64,000 nt of DNA from a virus: IMG/VR virus record IMGVR_UViG_3300030103_004672, positions 1 to 64,000 of that record; one strand, given 5' to 3'. The notes under the pieces were generated by a model. That model was not told the DNA's origin, did not search any database, and saw only the letters and a list, made by a program, of their open reading frames with translations. Numbering within the stretch: the first letter of the stretch is position 1; each line of letters opens with the position of its first letter. The position numbers and the translations under genes were made by a program. Of the stretch, positions 17,190 to 52,214 are shown piece after piece.

Positions 17190-18410
17190 ATGCCACGTAT
17201 TAAGAAATTTTCAGAACTTCTAACAGAGTCTAGATCTACAGACGTACAGGAAGTTGTTAAAAAATTAGGATTTAGTTCTTTAGAAGAAATCAAAAAAGAA
17301 AGAGCAATGCTAGCCAAGCTAGAAGCTTTGCTAAAATCTATTCCCCAGTCAAATCAAATAGCAGAGGATGATGCCGATGAAATTGAAGACGAAGTTGTAA
17401 AAATGGGTACTCCAAAATCTTTAGAAGGTGCTGATGGAGAAAAAGAAGAAGATGGTGAAACAGGTGTCGAGGGTGACGTTGAAGAGGCAGAGGAATCAGA
17501 AGAGGTTGAAGCTGAAGTATCAGTAGAAGAACCTGCTGAGGAAGAAGTTGAAGAAGCTGCCGAAGAAGATGAGGCTGAAGATGAGGCTTCTAAAATTGCC
17601 GATGAGGTTGTAGCTAAAGGCGAACCTAAAGAACAACCAGAAGGTGAGGGTGATGAAGTAGTAACTAAAGATCAGGAAATCGAGACAGAAGTCGAAGAAG
17701 AACCTGCTGATGCTGAAGCTGGCACTGATGTTCCTAAGAAAAGAATTAAGTCGTTTGCAGAATTCGTGGCTGAAAAAGAGGTTACAGTTAATAAGAATGT
17801 AAACTATCACGACGACGAAGAAGAGAAGGAAGATTACGGAATGCCAGTGGCTGCATCCGCTGATCCAATGTCTGAAGGAATGTATGAGGATGATGACGAT
17901 GATGACGATGATGATCACGACGATGATGATCATGAAGATCGCGAAGAGCATGAGGGCAAAGAGGATGAGAAGAAAGGTGAAGAACTAGAAGACGAAGGAG
18001 ATGAGGATGTTGATTCAGAAGATGATGCCGAAAAAGAAGTTCATTACAAAGACGCTGTAAAGGATGACGAAAAGGAAAAAGAAGATCTTGAAAAGGATAT
18101 AGAATACGACGAAGAAGAGGAGGACGATGCTAAAGAGGATGAAGAAAAGAAAAATGAATCTCTAACAGTATCATTTGCTAAATTTGTCGCTGAAGCTTAT
18201 GAAGCAGAAGAAACTGAAGAAGAAGAAGTTGAAGAGGAAGAAGTTGAAGAGGAAGATGCTAAAAACGAAAAATATGACAGAGTCGTATTAGGTGGAAACA
18301 AAGGAGACAAATCTAAAACTCATTCAGGTGAAGATTACGAGGACGAGGATGACAAGAAAGAAGAAGGCGAAGAGCCTTTAGCAGATGAGTCTGAAGTAAA
18401 TGAAAAATAA
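17190..18410 (+). CDS. Highly acidic protein with three capsid-targeting-like peptides
   Basis: About half of the 406 residues are Glu or Asp, including a run of nine Asp near residue 234. Three copies of an F-x-x-F/L-x-x-E peptide occur: KKFSELLTES at the N-terminus, RIKSFAEFVAEKE at 185-197 and VSFAKFVAEAYE at 327-338. T4 internal proteins carry such a peptide at the N-terminus, and the gp21 protease cuts after the Glu; T4 also packages acidic internal peptides cut from scaffold gp22. This may be a precursor of several acidic head peptides or an accessory scaffold. That role is inferred. An ATG after a late-type promoter opens the gene. Confidence 0.65.
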   Translation: MPRIKKFSELLTESRSTDVQEVVKKLGFSSLEEIKKERAMLAKLEALLKSIPQSNQIAEDDADEIEDEVVKMGTPKSLEGADGEKEEDGETGVEGDVEEAEESEEVEAEVSVEEPAEEEVEEAAEEDEAEDEASKIADEVVAKGEPKEQPEGEGDEVVTKDQEIETEVEEEPADAEAGTDVPKKRIKSFAEFVAEKEVTVNKNVNYHDDEEEKEDYGMPVAASADPMSEGMYEDDDDDDDDDHDDDDHEDREEHEGKEDEKKGEELEDEGDEDVDSEDDAEKEVHYKDAVKDDEKEKEDLEKDIEYDEEEEDDAKEDEEKKNESLTVSFAKFVAEAYEAEETEEEEVEEEEVEEEDAKNEKYDRVVLGGNKGDKSKTHSGEDYEDEDDKKEEGEEPLADESEVNEK

Positions 18411-18419
18411 AATCTAAAA

Positions 18420-19064
18420 ATGAAAAACCTCAAATCATTTGGTCAATTTTTAAACGAGCAAACATCAACTGAAGGTTTGTCAGAAAGAGCAAAGCCAGTT
18501 AAGAAAAGAGACTGGGACAAAGCTGATGATGAACAAAGAGAAGAATGGCTGCTTCAGGCATTTTCTGATCCAGATGATGCTACGGAATTTATTGAAGTAG
18601 ATTGGAAAGACCTGCCACCGACCGCAACTCAGAATATGGTGATGGAAGGCACTAGAGCCCAGGTTGGATTAATCGATCCTACTGGCCGAATCAGAAGTGT
18701 ATATTTGCATAGTGACGGTGGCCCGGATTCTGCTGGTAAAGTTTTGAAAAACAACTATTCTGATACTACTAAAGTCATCAAGTTATTAGATTTAGGAACT
18801 ATGGGGATTTCAAGCCTTGCACCTTCTATGAGGGGCGGTAAAGGTCATGATTTTTATAATAGAAAGCCTGGAGAGACTGTTTTTTATGGAAGAGACCGGG
18901 GCGAGACAGGAAGACCTATGATGACTCTAGGAAACGAAAAAAAGATGAAACAATTCATGGGCGATGCTCTAGGTGACTCAGATTTTCTTTATCTTTGGGA
19001 TTCTAGAGACGGGCAATGGTTAGTTGCAGATGCAAGAACCAAAAAATTACAACCACTTAAATAA
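18420..19064 (+). CDS. Tagged protein of an uncharacterised phage/bacterial family
   Basis: The 214-residue protein begins MKNLKSFGQFLNEQ, the capsid-targeting-like peptide, followed by a linker of about 60 residues. The body contains GRIRSVYLHSDGGPDSAGKVL, KVIKLLDLGTMGISSL, ETVFYGRDRGETG and FLYLWDSRDGQW. This order resembles a widespread unnamed family of small phage and plasmid proteins with motifs like IYCHWDGYP, LGDLSSL and AYGRDRGE (from memory, not searched); its function is unknown to me. The extra N-terminal peptide would direct this copy into the head. Confidence 0.6.
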   Translation: MKNLKSFGQFLNEQTSTEGLSERAKPVKKRDWDKADDEQREEWLLQAFSDPDDATEFIEVDWKDLPPTATQNMVMEGTRAQVGLIDPTGRIRSVYLHSDGGPDSAGKVLKNNYSDTTKVIKLLDLGTMGISSLAPSMRGGKGHDFYNRKPGETVFYGRDRGETGRPMMTLGNEKKMKQFMGDALGDSDFLYLWDSRDGQWLVADARTKKLQPLK

Positions 19065-19073
19065 TTTATAAAA

Positions 19074-19292
19074 ATGGCAAGACTATTAGGATTTAACGAT
19101 TTTCTTAATGAAAATGAGAAAATAGAGTCAGAAGCTGATTTTAAAGCATATGCTGAAGAAGTTTTAAAGGCAGCACATCCTGATGATTACGATCAGGAAA
19201 TTGCTGATAAAACAATTGCAGATTTGACACAAAAATACAATGGCGATTACGGTGCAATGATCGGAGCACTTACAAGTGGCCTAGGTAAGTAA
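19074..19292 (+). CDS. Small protein with capsid-targeting-like N-terminus
   Basis: The protein has 72 residues and starts MARLLGFNDFLNENEK, a variant of the tag peptide. The remainder is acidic and helical (DFKAYAEEVLKAAHPDDYDQ) with no recognisable motif. It lies between two other tagged genes with 9- and 5-base gaps, so it is probably co-expressed with them and co-packaged as a small internal head protein. That role is inferred from the peptide and position. Confidence 0.6.
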   Translation: MARLLGFNDFLNENEKIESEADFKAYAEEVLKAAHPDDYDQEIADKTIADLTQKYNGDYGAMIGALTSGLGK

Positions 19293-19297
19293 TACTT

Positions 19298-20569
19298 ATG
19301 AAATACATCCAATTATTTGAAAATTGGCTGGCCTCAAAAAGCCAGCCTTTTTTGTTTGAGGGCGGAGCAGCTGGGCATATGATGCATCCGTTTGACGACA
19401 AGGAATTGACATTTGGCGATTTTAAAAACATGATAGACTATGGTCTACAGGGTCGTCTTGACTTTGAAGAAGAGCCGACAGAAAAAACAGATGGCCAAAA
19501 CGTTTTTGCTACAATCCAAGATGGCAAAGTAAAATTTGCTAGAAATAAGGGAGATCTAAAAAGACCGATGTCTTTAGGTCAATTTACTCAAAAATTTGCA
19601 AACCATCCATCAGAGCAAGTTAGAGACACGTTTACATTTGCCGCAAACGATTTAGCAAGCATGTTAACAAGATTGCCTAAAGATGTGCAAGATAAAGTTT
19701 TTAACAACGGTAAGGATTTTATGAATATGGAGTTAATATATTCACTAAATCCAAATGTTATTAATTACGATAAGGACGTAATAGAATTTCACGGCATTAA
19801 GAAGACTGATGGAAATGGAAATATAATTGGTGAAGATACTAAGGCAGCTAGTGAAATAGCACAAATACTAAAAAGACTAGAAGCCAATGTAGGTAAAACA
19901 TTTTCTGTGATTCCACCAACTAGAATTAAGTTGATGAAAGATGTAAATTATGCAGCTAACAAAGCTGACTTGGTAAACAGAGTTGAATCATTAAGAAAAA
20001 AATATAACCTAAAAGACACAGATCCTGTTTCTAAATACCATGAGCAATGGTGGATGGATCTAATAAATAAAGACTTTCCAGATTTAGACGATGATGTTAA
20101 ATTAGGTTTAATGCAAAGGTGGGCATATGGTGACAAGAAATCTTTGGACATGAGATCCCTGAAATCTAGGGTATCTCCTGTAGACTTTGAAGCAATTAAA
20201 AATTTAGATAAAACTGATTTGCGAAGAAAGCAAAAAGAAAACATCGGCCCGTTTGAAGATATTTTTCTAAACCTAGGTGCTCGAATAATCTCTAATGCTG
20301 AAGATTTCTTAACAGCGAATCCAACTGAAGAAGCAAAAAGGCTCAGATCATCTATTAGTGCTGCCGCTAAAAATCTCAGAAAGGGTGGCAGTGAGCAGCA
20401 AATTGCAAGATTAGAAGATGAGCTAGCTAGGTTAGAAAAGTTAGGAGGCATAGAAATGGTTTATCCTACAGAAGGAATTGTTTTTAAATACAAAGGTAAA
20501 ACATATAAGCTTACTGGAAGCTTTGCGGCTATAAACCAATTATTAGGAATACTAAGATACGGAAGGTAA
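19298..20569 (+). CDS. RNA/DNA ligase-family nucleotidyltransferase with tag-like N-terminus
   Basis: The 423-residue protein contains ligase-superfamily motifs: motif I as EKTDGQN with the putative AMP-accepting Lys63, a following strand VKFARNKGDL, FMNMELIYS near residue 145 (motif III-like), and a C-terminal motif IV/V pair EGIVFKYKGK and YKLTGSF near residues 392-407. Such enzymes seal RNA or DNA ends through a covalent AMP-lysine intermediate. It opens with MKYIQLFENWLASK, a looser version of the tag peptide. A terminator-like hairpin overlaps codons 10-18. T4 has three ligases (gp30, Rnl1, Rnl2); which this matches cannot be decided by eye. Confidence 0.7.
   Translation: MKYIQLFENWLASKSQPFLFEGGAAGHMMHPFDDKELTFGDFKNMIDYGLQGRLDFEEEPTEKTDGQNVFATIQDGKVKFARNKGDLKRPMSLGQFTQKFANHPSEQVRDTFTFAANDLASMLTRLPKDVQDKVFNNGKDFMNMELIYSLNPNVINYDKDVIEFHGIKKTDGNGNIIGEDTKAASEIAQILKRLEANVGKTFSVIPPTRIKLMKDVNYAANKADLVNRVESLRKKYNLKDTDPVSKYHEQWWMDLINKDFPDLDDDVKLGLMQRWAYGDKKSLDMRSLKSRVSPVDFEAIKNLDKTDLRRKQKENIGPFEDIFLNLGARIISNAEDFLTANPTEEAKRLRSSISAAAKNLRKGGSEQQIARLEDELARLEKLGGIEMVYPTEGIVFKYKGKTYKLTGSFAAINQLLGILRYGR
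19326..19353 (+). terminator. Terminator-like hairpin inside the 5' end of the ligase gene
   Basis: GGCTGGC (19326-19332) and GCCAGCC (19341-19347) form a perfect 7-base-pair stem with an 8-base loop, followed by six T residues (19348-19353). This is a canonical intrinsic terminator, but it lies within codons 10-19 of the ligase-like gene. It may end transcripts of the tagged genes upstream and attenuate the ligase genes downstream. Confidence 0.6.
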
Positions 20570-20581
20570 ATAAATAAAGTA

Positions 20582-23410
20582 ATGAAAGAATTAAATCAAG
20601 TTTATAAGGATAAAGGTCGTGAATTTGTTAATAATCTTTTAGATGATTATCTTATCGTTACCGAAAAATTGTCAGGATCTAGTTTCTCTTTTGAAAGAGA
20701 TGGTTTTGACTTAGTATTCTATAAGGGCAATGGTGCAAGACGAATCAATCAGGTCGATAGAACTATGATGATGTACTACGAAGGCCCTATTAATTATTTA
20801 GAAAGGGCAACTGCTGATATCCTTGTAACATTACCTGAAAACTGGATTTTCTGCTTTCAGTATTTTGTGCATAATGAACCAGGAGTTGTAAAATACGACG
20901 AACTACCAAAAAATAATTTAGTACTAACACATATTTTAGTCAAGGGGCTTGGTGGCAAAATTGCTAAAGTTATAGATGACCCTAGAGTAATAAACGATTG
21001 GGCTAATGTTTTAGATGTAACTGCAATTAGGCCATTTTTCATGGGGAGACTAAGTGAAGAACAAAAGAAAAAGGTAAGAGAGTTTGTAGCTTTGCCAGTA
21101 GATGATCAGGAGGCTGCGTTTGGAACTGATTCATTTGTACAATACTTATTAAGCATTTTAGACAACGATGTAAATAGAACTACATTACAGACAAGTCTAA
21201 GAAAACCAATTGATTCATTAGTATTCAAATTCGTTAAGCCAGGAGGAGAGACTGCGTTCTCTGCAAAGGTTGTAGATCCATACACTAGGCACATAATGAA
21301 GAGCAAAGCTCCTGTTGATCTAAAAAGAATGCCAAAGGATATAAATGAAATATTATTATTAGATTTCTTAGCGTTTGTAGAAGAGCGAGGCATAAAGTCT
21401 GCAGATGTAATGAGCTCAGAGCCTGATAAGAGATATGTTGAGCTTATCTCCTCATTATTCAATGATTATGTAAAAAATCGTGGTGAATCTATTAAGGATA
21501 TGGATTTTGAGAAAGCTGATTTTGCGAAAGGTGATGAATTTAACTTAAACATTGATGCAATAAACAATGAAGACACTAAAAAATTAGTTAACTCAAATGA
21601 TGCATATGGGTCTCTGTACAAGATACTGCTAGGATCACTTAGGAAACATCGAAAGAAGCCAGGAAGTGTAATGACTCCAACTGTTGTTAAAGATTTTAAT
21701 AGCATGGTTGATAAGATCCAAAATATAACAGGTAAGGTTAAACAGGATGATACAATTAAAACTTTCAGCGATTATTTAGGTTTAAAGGCAATAGATGAGT
21801 CTGACAAAAAGCCGATTGATGAAATGATCATGGAGGAGTATATTAGTTCTTATGATGAATTTATAACAGAAGCGTTGAGAGTTCCTCATAAGGAACAGGG
21901 CAAAAAGCCAGTGAATGTATTTGTTGGCAGGTTCCAGCCTTTTACAAATGGCCACGTCAAGGTTTTTGAAGCTCTCCATAGAAAGAATGGATTGCCTGTA
22001 GTTGTAATGACTGTCAGAAGCGGTAAGGTTGATGATAGAAGACCTTTTTCTGAACAAGACCAGCAGGCATTATTCGCTAAACTCCAAAGACAGTATCCAT
22101 TTCTAGAAGCAATGCATATTCTGCCAAATGCTGCTATCGATTCAGTATTTGCATCAGTTAGACCAGCATACGAGCCAGTCTTATGGGGATATGGCACAGA
22201 TAGAAAAGCATCATATGAAGGCATGATCAATAAGCCTACATACAGAGAACAGCTTGGAGTAACAGATGAGTTTAAAGGTTATGAAATACCAAGATCAGGG
22301 CAGGCTGTATCTGCAACACAGGTAAGAGATGCGATAAAACGAGATGATGAGAAAATGTACAGAAAGCTAACACCAAAAAGCTTACATGATTCATACCAAT
22401 ACTTAAAAACTATATTAACACCAGTTTTAGCAGAAGAAGCTGAAGAAGATTTTGATGCTGAAGTTAGAGTTATAAACGAGGGCACTGAGAGAAATTATAT
22501 GGTTTTAGCCCAATCTTCAAGAAAGGAAGATAAAGATAAACTATATAATATGATCAACAAGGATCTTTTTGGTGGTAAGGCTCCATTCCAGAGAATCTCT
22601 CTTAAAAACTTTAGCAATGGAACAATATCTCAGGTTGATAGGCTTCTAAAGTCAAATCCGTCTGCAGCAACTAAATTGTGCAATCTAGGGGCAGATGTAA
22701 CTGGAATTGGGCGTGGTGAAATTATGCTTGCATACATAGTAGAAAACTGCGGAATCGGTGGAGGCTCACAAGATATTGATTTAACTCTTTACAACCAAAG
22801 AGGAGGGGTTCTTGACCAGTCGGAGCTAAAAGAGGCACGCCTAGGAAAGGACGGATATTTCTCTGACTGGAGAACTGGTGCAAAGCATAGGCCATATGTA
22901 AACGCTGCAAAAGACGATTTACAGGCATTGTACAAAGCACTAAAGGATGTTCTACCTGAACTAGATCCTAAAACGCCGGTTGGTGCGGACATTCAATCAA
23001 AAATGGCAAGAGGCGAAGGTGCTGCATTTATAAAGCTTGTTAGAGACATGGACCCTGTGGAAGTTGCTGCCCCGCTGAGATTCGAAGTACAAGTCACACC
23101 TGACGGTGAGCTTGTAATTTCTAAGGAAGGTGGAGACACTTTGGGAGACTTATCAAACAAGGCAACCCTAAACAGTTTAAAACAGTTATTATCCGGTCAA
23201 AACAAACAGAGCTATAAGTCTTTTAAAGATATTGAGGCTGAGCTCGCAGCTGGCTTTGGATCTATAATTGAAAAATTTGTTTTTGTCCAAACTGACAGTG
23301 CAAAGAGATTTAAAGGCGTATACTTTAAAAACAACTTATCGTCTGATCCTAATGAAACAAAGATCGTTAGTTTAACAGGTGGCACGGTTAAGGTTAAAGT
23401 TAAAGCATAA
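20582..23410 (+). CDS. Ligase-like / NMN adenylyltransferase-like / PD-(D/E)XK-like fusion protein
   Basis: The 942-residue protein has three parts. Residues 1-300 resemble an RNA ligase: motif I EKLSG with Lys29, and late motifs DSLVFKFVKPG and SAKVVDPYTRH. Residues 440-610 are a nucleotidylyltransferase domain with GRFQPFTNGH (449-458), the NadM/NadR-type signature, and VSATQVRDAI. Residues 640-942 contain GRGE (710-713), a D-I-D at 731-733 and E-L-K (748-750), the order expected for a PD-(D/E)XK nuclease core. Between parts one and two, YDEFITEA (424-431) resembles a prohead-protease cleavage site. A role in NAD or RNA repair on infection is possible but inferred. Confidence 0.7.
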   Translation: MKELNQVYKDKGREFVNNLLDDYLIVTEKLSGSSFSFERDGFDLVFYKGNGARRINQVDRTMMMYYEGPINYLERATADILVTLPENWIFCFQYFVHNEPGVVKYDELPKNNLVLTHILVKGLGGKIAKVIDDPRVINDWANVLDVTAIRPFFMGRLSEEQKKKVREFVALPVDDQEAAFGTDSFVQYLLSILDNDVNRTTLQTSLRKPIDSLVFKFVKPGGETAFSAKVVDPYTRHIMKSKAPVDLKRMPKDINEILLLDFLAFVEERGIKSADVMSSEPDKRYVELISSLFNDYVKNRGESIKDMDFEKADFAKGDEFNLNIDAINNEDTKKLVNSNDAYGSLYKILLGSLRKHRKKPGSVMTPTVVKDFNSMVDKIQNITGKVKQDDTIKTFSDYLGLKAIDESDKKPIDEMIMEEYISSYDEFITEALRVPHKEQGKKPVNVFVGRFQPFTNGHVKVFEALHRKNGLPVVVMTVRSGKVDDRRPFSEQDQQALFAKLQRQYPFLEAMHILPNAAIDSVFASVRPAYEPVLWGYGTDRKASYEGMINKPTYREQLGVTDEFKGYEIPRSGQAVSATQVRDAIKRDDEKMYRKLTPKSLHDSYQYLKTILTPVLAEEAEEDFDAEVRVINEGTERNYMVLAQSSRKEDKDKLYNMINKDLFGGKAPFQRISLKNFSNGTISQVDRLLKSNPSAATKLCNLGADVTGIGRGEIMLAYIVENCGIGGGSQDIDLTLYNQRGGVLDQSELKEARLGKDGYFSDWRTGAKHRPYVNAAKDDLQALYKALKDVLPELDPKTPVGADIQSKMARGEGAAFIKLVRDMDPVEVAAPLRFEVQVTPDGELVISKEGGDTLGDLSNKATLNSLKQLLSGQNKQSYKSFKDIEAELAAGFGSIIEKFVFVQTDSAKRFKGVYFKNNLSSDPNETKIVSLTGGTVKVKVKA

Positions 23411-23422
23411 AAAAATATTACC

Positions 23423-23737
23423 ATGAAGCATATTCTAGAAATGAATGATTTTTTGAATGAAAAAAGAGTAGTTGTTAAGAGAAGATATACTGAAAAACAT
23501 CCCGCAAGGCAAGTTTCTACTGCGGCTAGAATCAGAAATACTGTTTTAGAAGCAATTGCAGACGGCGTAATCACAGAAGAAGAGCTAAAAACTATTTTAT
23601 CACAGTTAGAAGCAAACTCACGATGGCTGAGTAGGAATACTAATTTATTTAATATAGATGAAGACGAAACAGGTGTGAAGAGATTTACATTATCACCTTA
23701 TGGACACCGTGTTAGAACTAGAACAATAGAGTCGTAA
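23423..23737 (+). CDS. Small basic protein with capsid-targeting-like N-terminus
   Basis: The 104-residue protein begins MKHILEMNDFLNEKR, a variant of the tag peptide. The following segment is basic (VVVKRRYTEKHPARQ). Residues 35-75 are helical (VLEAIADGVITEEELKTILSQL), and the C-terminus is again basic (GHRVRTRT). I do not recognise a family. It follows the ligase/NMNAT fusion by 12 bases and precedes the next gene by one base. Confidence 0.6.
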   Translation: MKHILEMNDFLNEKRVVVKRRYTEKHPARQVSTAARIRNTVLEAIADGVITEEELKTILSQLEANSRWLSRNTNLFNIDEDETGVKRFTLSPYGHRVRTRTIES

Positions 23738-23738
23738 A

Positions 23739-24140
23739 ATGCCAGCACTTTCTAAAACACAGCAAAGACTGATGGGAACTGCTTATGCAGTCAAGAATGG
23801 AGATCTAGACCTTAAGTCTGTTGATGCAGAGTACAGGGACAAAATCAAGGATCTTGTTGATGGCATGACGTTGAAGCAACTAAAAGATTTTGCAGAAACC
23901 AAACATGAAGGATTACCAGAAGTAAAAGAAACTGTAGCTCATTTAAACCCTAACATGAATGTCCAAAGCATGGGTGAACCTTCTGTACCAGGTAACCCAG
24001 GGCTAATGAATGACTTTGTGTCTCAACAAACTGGAAGTGGCGACCTACTTTCGACAAAAGATGTTAAAAAAGTTAAGAAAAAGAAAAAGAAAAAGAGCTG
24101 GTTAATGACTTTTGAGCAGTTTAACAATAAAAACATATAG
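23739..24140 (+). CDS. DUF3008-like protein sharing a capsid-protein segment
   Basis: The N-terminal 65 residues (MPALSKTQQRLMGTAYAVKNG, ending in FAETKHEGLPE) look like the DUF3008 family of small phage proteins of unknown function. Residues 68-102 then match residues 56-90 of the major capsid protein at 52381 without gaps: both contain HLNPNMN and end TGSGD, with 20 of 35 positions identical by eye. The tail is a Lys-rich run followed by SWLMTFEQFNNKNI, resembling a C-terminal version of the tag peptide. It may bind a capsid partner, mimic the capsid N-arm or be packaged. Function unknown. Confidence 0.65.
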   Translation: MPALSKTQQRLMGTAYAVKNGDLDLKSVDAEYRDKIKDLVDGMTLKQLKDFAETKHEGLPEVKETVAHLNPNMNVQSMGEPSVPGNPGLMNDFVSQQTGSGDLLSTKDVKKVKKKKKKKSWLMTFEQFNNKNI

Positions 24141-26412: not shown

Positions 26413-27816
26413 ATGCTATTAGATGTTTCGCAGGAAGACGGTAACTTGATCGTATCGTACTATAATTTTGAAGGTAAGACTAGATTTAAACATTACGAAT
26501 TAACATCAAAGGATTTGTACAATTGGTATCCATGTGATGCAAGTGATAAAAGAGCAGATCTTAAGATGAAGAACTGGGATGGTACACCAGTTAGAAAGGG
26601 TCGTACAAAGCATCTTAATAAGTATCGTGTTATTGAATACTTAGAGAACATACCTGAGCAAGATAAGAAGACTATATTCGGATATGATTTTCCTAAGACA
26701 TATTTTATTGATATCGAAGTTGAAGTAACTGATAGTTTCCCAGAACCTGAAAAGGCTGAGAATGCTATTACAGCTATTTGTATAGTAACGCCTGCAAATC
26801 AATGTGTAGTTCTCGCAACACGAGACATTCCAAAGGAGCAATATGGTGCTATTGAAAACCAGATAAATGAACACTTCAAAAGCACTGGTGAGACATTTAC
26901 ATTTGACATGAAATGTTTTAAGTCTGAATACGACATGCTATACACATTTCTTAAGTCATTTGTAAGAAAGTTCCCTATGATGACTGGTTGGAACTTTGTT
27001 AAGTTTGACTGGGCTTACATAGTAAATAGAGCAAAAAAGCTTGGGATAGATGCTTCAATAGCTTCACCCCTTGACAGGTTATTCAGCAACAATAATTATC
27101 CGTCACACGTTGGTGTTATGGATTACATGGAGATATATTCTAAGTGGGACAGAACTGTAAGTATCAAAGATGATCTTAAACTCGATACTGCTGGAGCTGC
27201 TGTACTAGGAATTAAGAAGATAAAGTATGATGGCACACTGCAGGATCTGTACGAGAAAGAATACTCAAAATACATATTTTACAATGCTGTAGATACGGCT
27301 CTAGTACAACTAATCCATAAGAAGATTAAGACGATGGATATTGCGTTGACAATATCACATATGAGTAGGATTAGTATATTTAAAGCTGCCTCACCTGTTG
27401 CAATTACAGAATCTTTGTTATGTAAAGAATTCTTAAAGCAAAACAGAGTTATGGCAACTCTTGATGAGAAGAATACAAAAAGCAGACAGTATGAAGGTGC
27501 ATTTGTAAAACAACCAATAACAGGCATGCATAACTCTGTTGCATGTTTTGACTTTGCATCACTTTATCCATCAATCATGAGACAGATGAATGTCTCTCCT
27601 GAAAGTTTTGTAAAGAAGGTAGACCCTAAACATACGTCTGATGAAATGGCTGATGATAGAATAGTTGCTATAAATGGAGTCGTTTATAAGTCTGAGGAAT
27701 CAATTCTAAAAAGGATTCTTGCAGATCTATATGGTCAGCGTAAAGAATATAAAAAGAAATCTTTCGAATTGCAGCAAAAAGCTTATGACCTCGAAAAAAC
27801 CTTACCAAAAACATAA
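26413..27816 (+). CDS. 43: DNA polymerase gp43, N-terminal part (exonuclease and palm motif A)
   Basis: This 467-residue product is the first half of a family B replicative polymerase. Exonuclease motifs are intact: FIDIEVEV (Exo I), GWNFVKFDW (Exo II) and YNAVDTAL (Exo III). Palm motif A follows as DFASLYPSIMRQ. It ends in charged helical sequence (YGQRKEYKKKSFELQQKAYD) typical of the fingers, before motif B. The remaining motifs are in a separate gene at 37046, so this is a split polymerase whose halves (467 + 378 residues; T4 gp43 898) must assemble. No intein signature is present at the break. Confidence 0.9.
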   Translation: MLLDVSQEDGNLIVSYYNFEGKTRFKHYELTSKDLYNWYPCDASDKRADLKMKNWDGTPVRKGRTKHLNKYRVIEYLENIPEQDKKTIFGYDFPKTYFIDIEVEVTDSFPEPEKAENAITAICIVTPANQCVVLATRDIPKEQYGAIENQINEHFKSTGETFTFDMKCFKSEYDMLYTFLKSFVRKFPMMTGWNFVKFDWAYIVNRAKKLGIDASIASPLDRLFSNNNYPSHVGVMDYMEIYSKWDRTVSIKDDLKLDTAGAAVLGIKKIKYDGTLQDLYEKEYSKYIFYNAVDTALVQLIHKKIKTMDIALTISHMSRISIFKAASPVAITESLLCKEFLKQNRVMATLDEKNTKSRQYEGAFVKQPITGMHNSVACFDFASLYPSIMRQMNVSPESFVKKVDPKHTSDEMADDRIVAINGVVYKSEESILKRILADLYGQRKEYKKKSFELQQKAYDLEKTLPKT

Positions 27817-30699: not shown

Positions 30700-31452
30700 G
30701 TGGATAATTTAAACATTTATATAGTAGGACCATGTAGTGTGGAAAGTAGCTTTATTTTTGGATGCGTTGCAGAGAAAATGACTAGCGCGATACCAGACGA
30801 TAAGAACTGGTATTTAAAAGGAAGCTTTGACAAAGCGAACAGAACTAGTGTCGAAGCGCCTAGAGGTCCTGGAATTTATGATTCTATTGATATTTTTGAA
30901 GATATTAAAGAAAAATTCACAAATATTAAAATCACTACCGATATCCACGAGCCCTGGCAGGCTGAAAAATTGAGGCACATTGTTGATATGATCCAAGTTC
31001 CAGCATTTTTATGCAGACAAACTGATTTGATAAGAGAATGTGCACATAATTTTGATGTGATAAATGTAAAGAAAGGCCAATGGATGGATCCTGGATCAAT
31101 GCGACATGTGGTTGAGAAGATACGTTATTATAATGAAGATGCAAAGGTATACATCACAGAACGTGGCACTCAGTTTGGATACGACAGGGTCATAGTAGAC
31201 TATAGAGCTGTTGATATCATGAAGGAATTTTGCGATGGTGTCATATTGGATTGTACACATTCAACTCAACAGTTAGGGCAGGGAACTACTGGTGGTAATA
31301 GAAATCTTGCAAAGGCATATGTTAAAACTGCAAGAGAATTTGGTTATGATGGAATTTTTGCAGAAACACATCCAGCTCCAGATACTGCAATTTCTGATAA
31401 GGATAGCCAAATAGACTTAGAGTGGATGGCTAGCGTGATAAATACTATATGA
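30700..31452 (+). CDS. kdsA: 3-deoxy-8-phosphooctulonate synthase (KDO-8-P synthase)
   Basis: KdsA condenses phosphoenolpyruvate with arabinose-5-phosphate to make the precursor of KDO, the inner-core sugar of lipopolysaccharide. The 250-residue protein keeps family blocks GPCSVES, KGSFDKANRTS, APRGPGI, TTDIHEPWQAE, QVPAFLCRQTDL, VKKGQWMDPG, ERGTQFGYDR, DCTHSTQQLG and ETHPAP. The only in-frame start is GTG at 30700, since TAA lies two codons upstream. Cellular KdsA is about 280 residues. In a phage it could sustain or alter host LPS during infection. The stop overlaps the Nudix ATG. Confidence 0.85.
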   Translation: MDNLNIYIVGPCSVESSFIFGCVAEKMTSAIPDDKNWYLKGSFDKANRTSVEAPRGPGIYDSIDIFEDIKEKFTNIKITTDIHEPWQAEKLRHIVDMIQVPAFLCRQTDLIRECAHNFDVINVKKGQWMDPGSMRHVVEKIRYYNEDAKVYITERGTQFGYDRVIVDYRAVDIMKEFCDGVILDCTHSTQQLGQGTTGGNRNLAKAYVKTAREFGYDGIFAETHPAPDTAISDKDSQIDLEWMASVINTI

Positions 31453-31898
31453 AATATTCAAGATCCGCAGGACTGGCAATCATATACAAAGGGACAGTAT
31501 TAATGGGGCATCCTAGTAATGGATCTTGGGTTGGTAGATATAGTATTCCAAAAGGTCACGTTGAAGATAGCGAATCGATTTTAGAGGCTGCGATTAGAGA
31601 GACAAAGGAAGAGGTTGGCATATCAGTTCCACTTGAAATGATTGACAAAACCCCTTACAGAGTTTACAGAATAGGTAAGCACAGCATTAAAACAGTTTTT
31701 TATTATATAGTAAAAATTGACGATCTTGGGCAAATCGGACTAGATACGATAAAGGTACCAAAAGAACAGCTTCAGATAGAGGAAATCGACTGGGCTGGAT
31801 TTATAACATACAAAGAAGCTAAGCTTAGATCATCTAGGTATCAATTAGCACTGATAGATAACTTACTTAATTTAGGATTATTAAACCCAACTTTATAA
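31449..31898 (+). CDS. Nudix hydrolase
   Basis: The 149-residue protein carries a perfect Nudix box, G-x5-E-x7-R-E-x-x-E-E-x-G-I, from Gly36 (GHVEDSE) through RETKEEVGI at residues 50-58. Nudix enzymes hydrolyse nucleoside diphosphates linked to another moiety. The fold N-terminal to the box (GLAIIYKGTVLMGHPS) resembles diadenosine-polyphosphate or NTP-type Nudix proteins; T4 NudE is such an enzyme. The substrate cannot be assigned. The ATG overlaps the kdsA stop (ATGA). Confidence 0.88.
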   Translation: MKYSRSAGLAIIYKGTVLMGHPSNGSWVGRYSIPKGHVEDSESILEAAIRETKEEVGISVPLEMIDKTPYRVYRIGKHSIKTVFYYIVKIDDLGQIGLDTIKVPKEQLQIEEIDWAGFITYKEAKLRSSRYQLALIDNLLNLGLLNPTL

Positions 31899-37045: not shown

Positions 37046-38182
37046 ATGGATCGAAAATTAGAAAAAAAGTACGAAGAGTTAGCAGAGCTTAAAAAATTAG
37101 CAGGCGAGTATTATAACTACGAACAAGGAATCAAGCTCATGCTTAATTCGATCTACGGTGCATTTGGAAATCCATACTTTTATTTCTTCAATGTTGACAT
37201 AGCAGAAACTATCACACTTCAGGGTAAAGATGCTATTCTTTACACAGAAGAATTAGTAAACAAATACTTTAGAGAATTTTGGCATTTAGATACGGATGCA
37301 CACAATAAGATGGGTATCACCGTTACTGGAAAGATCAAGCAACCTGTAGGAATCTATATTGACACTGATTCAATTTACATGAAATTTGAAGAAGTTATCA
37401 AAAACTCAGACTGGGAAGGTGATTCTAAAACTTTTATACTTAATTTATACAAGCATAGATTAGGAGAATACATTGAACGCATTCTACAAAAATATGCTGA
37501 TGACAACAACGCCGAAAACTTCTTAAGCTTCGAACTAGAAAGCATTGCAAAGAATGCTATCTGGTTAGCTAAAAAGAAATACATGCAAAATATAGTTTGG
37601 AAAGATCCTGACTTACATTATGATGATCTTACTAAGATCAGCGCTAAGGGATTTGAAATTATTCAATCATCTACTCCGATATTTGCAAGGCAGAAGTTAA
37701 AAGACTTATTAAAATACATCTTTTCTGTTGAAGAGCTTAGCATGAAGGATTTTGCAGGTCGTCTTAAAGAAATAAAGCGTGAGTTCAAGCTTGCAAACGT
37801 TGAAAATATAAGTTTTGCAAAAAAGGTAAACAATTATCAAAGGTATGTTCTAAACGACATAGATAGATTTGAGATTACTAAAGGATGCCCTATCGGTGTA
37901 AGAAGTGCAGGATATCATAATTACTTGCTAAATAATTCAAATGCAAAAATGAAATACAAACCGCTTGGTAATGGCGAAAAGTTAAAAATGTATTTTTCTA
38001 CAGATAGGCACTGTGATGTATTTGCATATGCACCTGGTGATTATCCTTATGAATTTGCACCTGAAATAGATTACGATGTGCAATTTGAGAAAACTATATT
38101 AGATCCAATAAATCGGGTTATTAAGGCGATGGGATTCAAGCCATTTGATCGTAACTTGATTTATGCAGTGTCTTTATTCTAA
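37046..38182 (+). CDS. 43: DNA polymerase gp43, C-terminal part (motifs B and C, thumb)
   Basis: This 378-residue product is the second half of the family B polymerase. It begins in a charged fingers helix (MDRKLEKKYEELAELKKLAG), then motif B KLMLNSIYGAFGN, motif C YIDTDSIYMKF with the catalytic Asp pair, a KKKYMQNI segment and the thumb. It ends NLIYAVSLF, a likely clamp-binding tail as in T4 gp43. The first half is 9.2 kb upstream. The break falls between the two fingers helices, where separate chains could still pack together. Confidence 0.9.
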   Translation: MDRKLEKKYEELAELKKLAGEYYNYEQGIKLMLNSIYGAFGNPYFYFFNVDIAETITLQGKDAILYTEELVNKYFREFWHLDTDAHNKMGITVTGKIKQPVGIYIDTDSIYMKFEEVIKNSDWEGDSKTFILNLYKHRLGEYIERILQKYADDNNAENFLSFELESIAKNAIWLAKKKYMQNIVWKDPDLHYDDLTKISAKGFEIIQSSTPIFARQKLKDLLKYIFSVEELSMKDFAGRLKEIKREFKLANVENISFAKKVNNYQRYVLNDIDRFEITKGCPIGVRSAGYHNYLLNNSNAKMKYKPLGNGEKLKMYFSTDRHCDVFAYAPGDYPYEFAPEIDYDVQFEKTILDPINRVIKAMGFKPFDRNLIYAVSLF

Positions 38183-50543: not shown

Positions 50544-52214
50544 ATGTCTAAAAATTTATTAATCATAGAAAGATCGAGCACCGTACTCAATACGCAGAAG
50601 GAGACGGATGGTTCGGTAATACTCGAAGGAGTCTTTACACAAATAGGAGTAAAGAACAAGAATAACAGAATTTACGAAGAAGAGGAAGTTCTACCTCATA
50701 TTAATGAGCTAAAAGAGAAGGTTGCTAGTAAAAAATTATTAGGCGAACTTGATCATCCAAAGGATTTTGATATTAGCTTATCAAATGTATCTCACGTTAT
50801 CGAGGATCTAAGATATGATGAAAACAAAAAACAAGTTTTAGGTCGAATTAAATTATTGAACACATCTAAAGGTAAAGAAGCAAAGGCGCTAATAGAAGAC
50901 GGTATTCCATTACACATCTCTAGCAGGGCTGCTGGAACTGTAGGTGATGATGGTCGAGTAAAAATTAAAAAATTCTTTACATATGACTTAGTCGCTGATC
51001 CTGGTTTTGAAAACGCAGAATTAGCAAGAGTTAACGAATCATTTGGATTTGATGCAGATGACTCTTTATACATCTATGAAGTTAATGAACAGATAAATAA
51101 ACCAAATAAAAAATCAGAAGAAATGGCTCAAGAACAATATGTAACTGTTGAGGACTTTAACAAGTATACTGAATACTTAAAAAATGAAATTGAGAGAGTA
51201 AAAGAAACAGCTAACGATGATCAGTCTGCTACAATTCAAAAACTAGTTGAGTATTCTGAGCATATCGCTGAGAAAGTAAATCAGGTTACTGATTATGTTG
51301 AGTATGTAGCTGAAAATGTCGATAAGAGCATTTCATATACTGACTACTTAGCAGAAAATATGAACAATATTAAGGAATACACAGATTATTTAGCTGAACA
51401 GTTAGATACAGGTATTCAATATTCTGAGCATGTTGCTGAAAAGACAGATCAGTCTATCGAATATGCTAATTACCTAGGAGAAAGCTTAGAGAAAGGAATT
51501 GCATATAGCGAGTACATTGCTGAGAAACTCGATAAGAGCATTGCCTATTCTGAGTACTTGAAAGAGAATGTCGAAAAGAGCATTACTTATACTGAGTATG
51601 TTGCTGAAGAAGTAAACAACGAATACGGAAAGATTTTAGCTGAAAATGCTAAAGATACAGCTGATGGTAAAATTGTTGTAGAGTCTGACGATTCTTACAA
51701 AGCTAACATTAGTGAAAAACTAACAGCTCTTGTTGAGAAGGCTGAATCTAAGAGCAATCACAACTTGTTCTTCATGAATTTCTTAACTGAAAAGAAAAGA
51801 AATGAGTTCGGTGCATTAAACAATGAAAAGCAAGATAAGATTGTAGAGCAAATGAATTCAAACCGTTGCATGTCTACCATAGACGCTGAGAGAATTTGGG
51901 ATTCTTGCTTTGTTACTGAATCTAATAAATTAGATGTTGTAGATAGCATGCCAGAGAAATACCGCGCAAAATGGGAATCATTGAGTGAAGGTAAGAAAAA
52001 CCAGATTCTAGCCGAGTCACAGTTCAGAAGCTTAGATACTCAATATGCTATCGATAACTTCTGGGCAACTAGAGATCTTCGCGATACTAAAGTTGAGTTA
52101 GAAAAAATCAACGAATCTAAAGTTGCTGGTGAGGATGTAGAAAATCCATATGCAGTAAATGAAGATTTCAAGAATGACTTAGTTAACAGACTAAGATTCA
52201 ACTTAGGAAGATAA
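50544..52214 (+). CDS. 21: Prohead protease gp21 fused to a gp22-like scaffold
   Basis: Residues 1-175 are a prohead protease: LLGELDHPKD carries the catalytic His71, HISSRAAG the serine at 126/127, and ADPGFENAEL matches the family. From residue 194 the protein becomes a helical acidic scaffold: nine 14-residue repeats at 234-359, then a helical C-terminal part with protease-site-like FLTE and ILAE. In T4 protease (gp21) and scaffold (gp22) are separate genes; here one 556-residue frame carries both. An in-frame ATG at 51123 (MAQEQYVTVEDF) could make a scaffold-only product. It is followed by a strong terminator. Confidence 0.85.
   Translation: MSKNLLIIERSSTVLNTQKETDGSVILEGVFTQIGVKNKNNRIYEEEEVLPHINELKEKVASKKLLGELDHPKDFDISLSNVSHVIEDLRYDENKKQVLGRIKLLNTSKGKEAKALIEDGIPLHISSRAAGTVGDDGRVKIKKFFTYDLVADPGFENAELARVNESFGFDADDSLYIYEVNEQINKPNKKSEEMAQEQYVTVEDFNKYTEYLKNEIERVKETANDDQSATIQKLVEYSEHIAEKVNQVTDYVEYVAENVDKSISYTDYLAENMNNIKEYTDYLAEQLDTGIQYSEHVAEKTDQSIEYANYLGESLEKGIAYSEYIAEKLDKSIAYSEYLKENVEKSITYTEYVAEEVNNEYGKILAENAKDTADGKIVVESDDSYKANISEKLTALVEKAESKSNHNLFFMNFLTEKKRNEFGALNNEKQDKIVEQMNSNRCMSTIDAERIWDSCFVTESNKLDVVDSMPEKYRAKWESLSEGKKNQILAESQFRSLDTQYAIDNFWATRDLRDTKVELEKINESKVAGEDVENPYAVNEDFKNDLVNRLRFNLGR
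51243..51620 (+). repeat. Nine tandem 14-residue coding repeats in the scaffold part of gp21
   Basis: Nine in-frame 42-base units encode Y-(S/T)-(E/D)-(Y/H)-(V/I/L)-A-E-x-(V/L)-x-(K/N/Q)-(S/G)-I-type units (for example LVEYSEHIAEKVNQ and SIAYSEYLKENVEK). DNA copies are diverged but protein spacing is exact, with Tyr and Glu every 14 residues, as in a repeated coiled coil that might measure scaffold length. Confidence 0.8.

Follow-up and report, generated by a model that had tools for sequence, protein, structure and literature searches.

We analyzed a 64,000-nucleotide stretch of viral DNA (positions 1 to 64,000 of IMG/VR record IMGVR_UViG_3300030103_004672, hereafter the window; the parent virus record is 88.7 kb) and focused on one of its genes, which encodes a three-part protein of 942 residues termed P0001. 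The window belongs to a T4-like phage with portal, major head protein and head maturation protease assigned via PHROG. Among phage records, its major capsid protein is closest to that of huge phage LR756500 (462 kb), at 56% identity, and a DNA-level search of phage records with the window sequence returned zero matches. P0001 and the elements within it are listed below, with a slash marking candidate cleavage positions and pLDDT denoting the predicted local distance difference test score.

20582-23410, + strand: three-part protein P0001, 942 amino acids (open frame; homologous three-part protein in the independent IMG/VR contig L113)
20582-21781, + strand: part 1, residues 1-400, predicted RNA-ligase-fold nucleotidyltransferase (AlphaFold model, T4 Rnl2 match)
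20666-20668, + strand: codon of the motif-I lysine K29, within part 1
21842-21871, + strand: internal capsid-targeting-like decapeptide ISSYDEFITE (residues 421-430) with candidate cut E430/A431 (T4 IPII/IPIII likeness; linker pLDDT <50)
21872-22480, + strand: part 2, residues 431-633, NadM-type (NMNAT-like) nucleotide adenylyltransferase by profile, with GRFQPFTNGH and VSATQVR (Pfam, PHROG, PDB profile)
22469-22483, + strand: second candidate prohead-protease site VINE633/G634, between parts 2 and 3 (L113, stand-alone part-3 versions)
22481-23407, + strand: part 3, residues 634-942, PD-(D/E)XK-like, with E713, D733, E748 and K750 (conservation, weak structural matches)

The fusion is real. 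As an earlier note on this DNA had stated, 20582-23410 on the + strand is a single open reading frame of 942 codons, and the residues singled out there are all in place: K29 in EKLSG, GRFQPFTNGH from G449 to H458, VSATQVR, E713 in GRGE, D733 in DIDL, E748-L-K750, and FITEA at F427-A431 between parts 1 and 2. L113 encodes a 947-residue protein with the identical part order 1-2-3, sharing 52% identity with the window over part 1 and 52-53% over part 3. Since both L113 and L114 encode this fusion, an assembly artefact as its origin could be ruled out. Other combinations of the parts were also observed. In L012, L014 and L020, a fusion of the part-1 ligase (ligase 2) with NMNAT (ca. 620 residues) adjoins a separate part-3 gene (334-359 residues), LR756500 (L002) carries the ligase 2-NMNAT fusion without part 3, and in the other huge phages L003 and L004 only the ligase-like part was found out of the three.

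Part 1 is firmly predicted to adopt an RNA-ligase nucleotidyltransferase fold, which bears out the ligase assignment made earlier from motifs. The AlphaFold model of part 1 (36 relatives) reached a pLDDT of 83.4 and a predicted template modeling score (pTM) of 0.78, and its leading structural matches were RNA ligases without exception. The best of these, T4 RNA ligase 2 (Rnl2), was found with a Foldseek E value of 1.6e-6 and, using VIA, aligned over 191 residues with a Z score of 11.4 and a root-mean-square deviation of 4.0, covering model residues 1-238. A profile search of part 1 against PDB sequences gave nothing meaningful. The motif-I lysine (K29) is present in 26 of 36 relatives and is replaced by Asn, Asp, Val or Glu in L052, L090 and a huge-phage branch. 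Based on sequence alignment alone, from which motifs III to V were assigned, the motif IV acidic residue D211 and the motif V lysine K229 are present, while the motif III position is a glutamine (Q93) in the window clade; among the 36 relatives, 19 have Glu there and 4 have Asp. Catalysis by part 1 is plausible but not assured because the motif III glutamate is a glutamine here and the motif-I lysine has been lost in some relatives. In the huge-phage branch (L091-L110), where the motif-I lysine is gone and the motif-V lysine mostly gone, the proteins are likely pseudo-ligases that are conserved all the same.

In case of part 2, profile comparisons firmly point to a NadM-type adenylyltransferase, in good agreement with the NMNAT-like label given previously. 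Pfam PF01467 (CTP_transf_like) matches residues 446-505 with 23.4 bits against a cut-off of 21, PHROG matches are phrog_3041 and phrog_395 (cytidyltransferase), and the best PDB match of the family profile is the MJ0541 NMNAT (E value 2e-8), followed by NadM-Nudix enzymes. The window NMNAT part used alone in a phmmer search against PDB yielded zero matches at 0.01. Because part 2 falls far below every NCBIfam NMNAT equivalog cut-off, nicotinamide mononucleotide (NMN) can be named only as its presumed substrate.

For part 3, a PD-(D/E)XK domain is the favored reading, plausible but weaker than the other two assignments and not proven. The catalytic residues proposed in the earlier note are strongly conserved: E713 (GxGE), D733, E748 and K750 show no variation among 12 relatives, and E, D and ExK are also kept in a 270-residue protein of cultured Vibrio phages at ca. 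22% identity (GIGPGE, GVDL, EIK). Profile comparison with this Vibrio phage family gave an hhalign E value of 4e-8. The fold proposed along with these residues is less well backed. The model reached a pLDDT of 75.6 and a pTM of 0.65, Foldseek searches of PDB and BFVD returned zero matches below an E value of 0.001, and the VIA ranking placed restriction enzymes at low Z scores just above unrelated rows (MspI 4.2, MvaI 4.1, EcoRV 4.1, DpnI 3.6). Part 3 belongs to none of the Pfam and PHROG families, and its profile found nothing meaningful among PDB sequences. A tblastn search of phages with the window part 3 gave zero matches even at an E value of 1, while the L012 version reached Vibrio phages at an E value of 0.06. 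Bacterial and archaeal genomes, searched with one pattern, contained no confirmed relative.

The junctions between the parts resemble processing sites of T4 head proteins. T4 gp21 cleaves after [L/I]-x-E, and in the capsid-targeting sequence (CTS) positions 4 and 7 act in targeting and positions 8 and 10 in processing (PMC9026906). T4 IPIII and IPII begin with MKTYQEFIAE/A, and the window peptide SSYDEFITE/A (422-431) is the same at Y4, E6, F7, I8, E10 and A11. The FITE/A site falls inside a disordered linker (residues 402-430 of the AlphaFold model have a pLDDT <50), and a site ahead of the NMNAT module is kept in relatives. A strict CTS-like motif followed by alanine occurs once in P0001 compared with 0.012 expected from shuffles of P0001. 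In L113, the corresponding junctions read AVSE/A before NMNAT and LITE/A between parts 2 and 3, and stand-alone part-3 versions carry AINE/N or VLNE/N near their start.

Similar signals were found in the surrounding genes. Across all window genes, 15 CTS-like motifs were observed versus 4.4 expected, and within the first 25 residues there were 4 versus 0.29 expected (maximum of 3 in 1000 shuffles). Several proteins with CTS-like N-termini cluster at 14.9-23.7 kb of the window. The relevant genes are:

17190-18410, + strand: acidic protein with three CTS-like motifs, FSELLTE, FAEFVAE and FAKFVAE (motif scan)
18420-19064, + strand: phrog_1987 protein with N-terminal CTS LKSFGQFLNE (PHROG, motif scan)
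19074-19292, + strand: 72-residue protein with N-terminal CTS LLGFNDFLNE (motif scan)
19298-20569, + strand: second ligase-like protein, 423 residues, with canonical EKTDG, ARNK, TEGIVF and KLTG motifs, directly upstream of P0001
23423-23737, + strand: 104-residue protein with N-terminal CTS ILEMNDFLNE, fused to an NMNAT module in relatives (motif scan)
23739-24140, + strand: DUF3008 protein with CTS-like C-terminal tail MTFEQF (Pfam, motif scan)
50544-52214, + strand: prohead protease S77 (T4 gp21 family) fused to scaffold-like repeats (PF03420, E value 2e-15; phrog_207 head maturation protease)
51252-51608, + strand: nine scaffold repeats Y-x-x-[YH]-[ILV]-x-E, spaced exactly 14 residues (10 motifs observed versus 0.23 expected)

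A gp21-family (S77) protease is encoded in 9 of 10 related records, and a region similar to the scaffold repeats is present in LR756500 (L121). The repeats follow the same pattern as the CTS and the cargo peptide, which suggests that cargo may join the head core by imitating the scaffold. The canonical motifs of the upstream ligase-like protein are invariant among 9 relatives, and in other phages its family occurs joined to NMNAT. Alignment between the two ligase-like families is weak (hhalign E value 0.0023, probability 12%), and the profile of the upstream protein against PDB sequences gave nothing meaningful. The DUF3008 protein also contains a lysine run, and its homologues in L002, L039 and L113 have similar tails, which suggests C-terminal targeting.

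Comparison with related phages indicates that modules have been shuffled at such sites. In L039, L047 and L051, ligase 2 (51-56% identical) is followed by unrelated modules, and the NMNAT module lies in a downstream gene, behind a domain equivalent to the separate 23423-23737 protein of the window, and starts directly after [ILV]-N-E/A. The NMNAT module is located behind ligase 2 in some phages and behind the KRRYTE protein in others, and the junction preceding it reads [ILV]-x-E/[AG] in 10 of 12 cases. In L061 and L020, proteins from this block contain many phi-[NT]-E/[AGKS] sites, 8 and 5 versus 0.76 and 0.59 expected, respectively. In the closest clade, [FY]-x-x-F is kept in the linker after ligase 2 irrespective of the module that comes next.

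Related gene sets recur more widely. The order of NMNAT and ligase within the fusion is reversed in Microcystis phage Mel-JY01 (639 residues, L007:8290-10209) and, with a ParB-like domain added, also in huge phage LR756508 (915 residues, L008:4483-7230). In cultured Vibrio phages, a part-3 gene directly follows the gene of a ligase-NMNAT-like fusion. Such a fusion is also encoded close to the portal gene in Campylobacter phages CP220, CPt10 and CP21; in the CP220 group (L127:5986-7506) its only annotation is that of a hypothetical protein. In Stenotrophomonas phage Mendera and Xanthomonas phage X1, an NMNAT gene lies behind ligase-like, PD-(D/E)XK-looking and Pol-beta-nucleotidyltransferase (NTase)-looking genes. 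The ligase-like genes of these two phages are homologous, as are their Pol-beta-NTase-looking genes. No homology was detected between their PD-(D/E)XK-looking genes, so this label was given by eye only. A Pol-beta-like gene with an N-terminal CTS adjoins the L113 fusion (L113:4429-5313) and has a homologue in L081 (8039-8971); the Pol-beta-NTase labels rest on motifs and have no Pfam match. More Pol-beta-NTase-looking genes lie near ligase and NMNAT genes at L009:1420-2340 and L010:1071-2138, and the Pol-beta-like NTase of L113 was absent when sought in the window's own record.

On balance, we consider it probable, with modest confidence, that P0001 is packaged into the head as a polyprotein and represents a variant of the T4 internal proteins and of polyvalent proteins. 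A ligase-fold enzyme, a NadM-type adenylyltransferase and a PD-(D/E)XK-like nuclease would be synthesized as a single chain, which the internal T4-type peptide at 421-430 would bring into a prohead scaffold bearing repeats of like pattern. The S77/gp21-family protease would then cut at 430/431 and 633/634, and the three freed enzymes would stay in the head beside the DNA, to be injected with it and to be active before phage gene expression. Their likeliest task would be the mending of nucleic-acid ends combined with restoration of nicotinamide adenine dinucleotide (NAD). This scheme is supported by sequence comparison as far as the sites themselves; packaging, cleavage, injection and catalysis, as well as the role and the defence countered, are what we infer beyond them. 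The proposal in the earlier note that the protein would be cut as the head matures and then injected gains strong comparative support from the T4-like peptide, the gp21-family protease, shuffling at the sites and the N-terminal signal of neighboring proteins. P0001 may also have a role in countering defences that destroy NAD or tRNA, as suggested at the same time.

Several observations weigh against this interpretation. The motif III glutamate is replaced by glutamine in the window clade. Bare [LIV]-x-E is frequent, with 17 occurrences in P0001, and the weight of any single site therefore stems only from its context and conservation. The peptide of P0001 is internal (421-430) while that of T4 is N-terminal, and the L002 junction STFE/A departs from [ILV]-x-E. 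Further, phage NadM has been reported as always accompanied by NadV (PMC9503650). NadV was not found in the window's 88-kb record and is absent from 8 of 10 related records, several of them incomplete but including the 190-kb Microcystis phage Mel-JY01 genome; it was found in LR756500 as well as in the close relative of that phage.

Among the alternatives, the one that survives best, albeit doubtful, is an end-repair kit for the entering genome or for cut RNA, in which NMNAT would remake NAD from NMN for ligation and not for counter-defence. The repeated pairing of NMNAT with a ligase, as a fusion or as a neighboring gene and in varying order, the absence of NadV from most records and the Pol-beta-like NTase gene nearby in several records would all fit such a kit. 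However, no NAD-binding Ia domain turned up, although no search aimed at Ia domains was made, and RNA-ligase-type folds normally use ATP.

It is rather unlikely, but conceivable, that part 1 is a decayed ligase serving chiefly as a carrier or adaptor that brings exchangeable enzymes (NMNAT, nuclease, unknown modules) into the head. The motif-I lysine is missing in 10 of 36 relatives, 8 of which also lack the motif-V lysine, and the altered motif III of P0001, at least three different downstream modules fused to part 1 and the canonical second ligase next door (19298-20569) point the same way. On the other hand, the window clade retains K29, the acidic motif IV residue and K229, and the lysine-less relatives form a separate huge-phage branch that mostly lacks NMNAT.

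We regard as unlikely that P0001 is an ordinary cytosolic three-domain enzyme, made late or early and never packaged, with phi-x-E as chance linker sequence. The commonness of [LIV]-x-E, the lack of a targeting peptide at P0001's own N-terminus and the plain separate NMNAT gene without such a site in Mendera and X1 would be expected in this case, but the single strict CTS with alanine exceeds chance expectation by far, neighboring proteins carry an N-terminal CTS, modules are shuffled at the sites and a prohead protease is encoded in the window. Equally improbable is a structural or DNA-binding head component without nuclease activity in place of the part-3 nuclease: the empty Foldseek searches and the lack of a Pfam or PHROG family would allow it, but E, D and ExK are invariant at ca. 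20% identity and restriction enzymes top the VIA rows.

Read as a head-packaged polyprotein, P0001 resembles T4 internal proteins and polyvalent proteins yet is a standard member of neither group, given its internal signal and the prohead protease as apparent cutter. It shares with T4 IPI-III and Alt a decapeptide of the same pattern, phi-x-E sites for predicted cleavage, a gp21-family protease and the clustering of presumed head-packaged genes; it differs in that the signal lies between enzyme domains and that one chain holds three enzymes. Polyvalent proteins of phages and conjugative elements likewise combine several unrelated enzyme domains in one chain and are virion-associated and presumed to be injected (PMC5512222), whereas the P0001 chain has no peptidase domain. 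Judging from its CTS context, P0001 may be injected with the DNA in the same way. In the polyvalent-protein paper, RNA ligases come up only as proteins with which the 2H domains were not observed to associate, and a search of its text found no mention of NMNAT (PMC5512222). Ejected head proteins of SPN3US and phiKZ are also cut after glutamate by a gp21 relative, but there cutting mostly removes propeptides (PMC5694885), whereas in P0001 enzyme modules would be separated. Searches of the open literature, with most subscription papers beyond reach, brought up no account of a prohead protease that cuts a polyprotein made of enzymes. At the level of single domains, part 1 shares the nucleotidyltransferase fold and the EKxxG motif I with T4 Rnl2 and the tRNA-ligase family but differs in the glutamine of motif III, the aspartate of motif IV and an identity of only ca. 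12%. Part 2 shares GRFQPF-x-x-GH, SxTxVR and the profile match with NadM (MJ0541; NadM-Nudix), yet it is fused to a ligase and a nuclease instead of Nudix, scores below the NCBIfam equivalog cut-offs and was found without NadV.

Two further observations concern the remainder of the window. Open reading frames at 26413-27816 and 37046-38182, ca. 9 kb apart, look like a family-B DNA polymerase in two pieces, its N-terminal and its C-terminal half, respectively, and the first half has a similar ending in L113 and L002. Downstream of ribonucleotide reductase genes, 30700-31898 contains a KDO-8-phosphate synthase-like gene followed by a Nudix-like gene.

As a tentative extension of the head-packaged reading, the head scaffold itself may act as a delivery platform. 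Cargo would carry a copy of the 14-residue repeat and be encoded as polyproteins; with release by the prohead protease at the cleavage sites, enzyme modules could be swapped there. The delivered ligase, NMNAT and nuclease, joined by a Pol-beta-like NTase in some relatives, would form a ready repair kit for nucleic acids and NAD, working already in the first minute of infection. Most internal head proteins in T4-like phages are small and lack an explanation. Should the interpretation hold true, they would follow a general logic of modular enzyme polyproteins loaded through scaffold mimicry and cut during maturation, and counter-defence ahead of phage gene expression would become directly testable. 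It would also draw attention to the set of ligase, NMNAT and nuclease that recurs in cultured Vibrio phages and to related sets, namely the Campylobacter ligase-NMNAT fusions and the similar gene sets of Stenotrophomonas and Xanthomonas phages, and would provide new internal tags for targeting and cleavage by which proteins could be loaded into phage heads.

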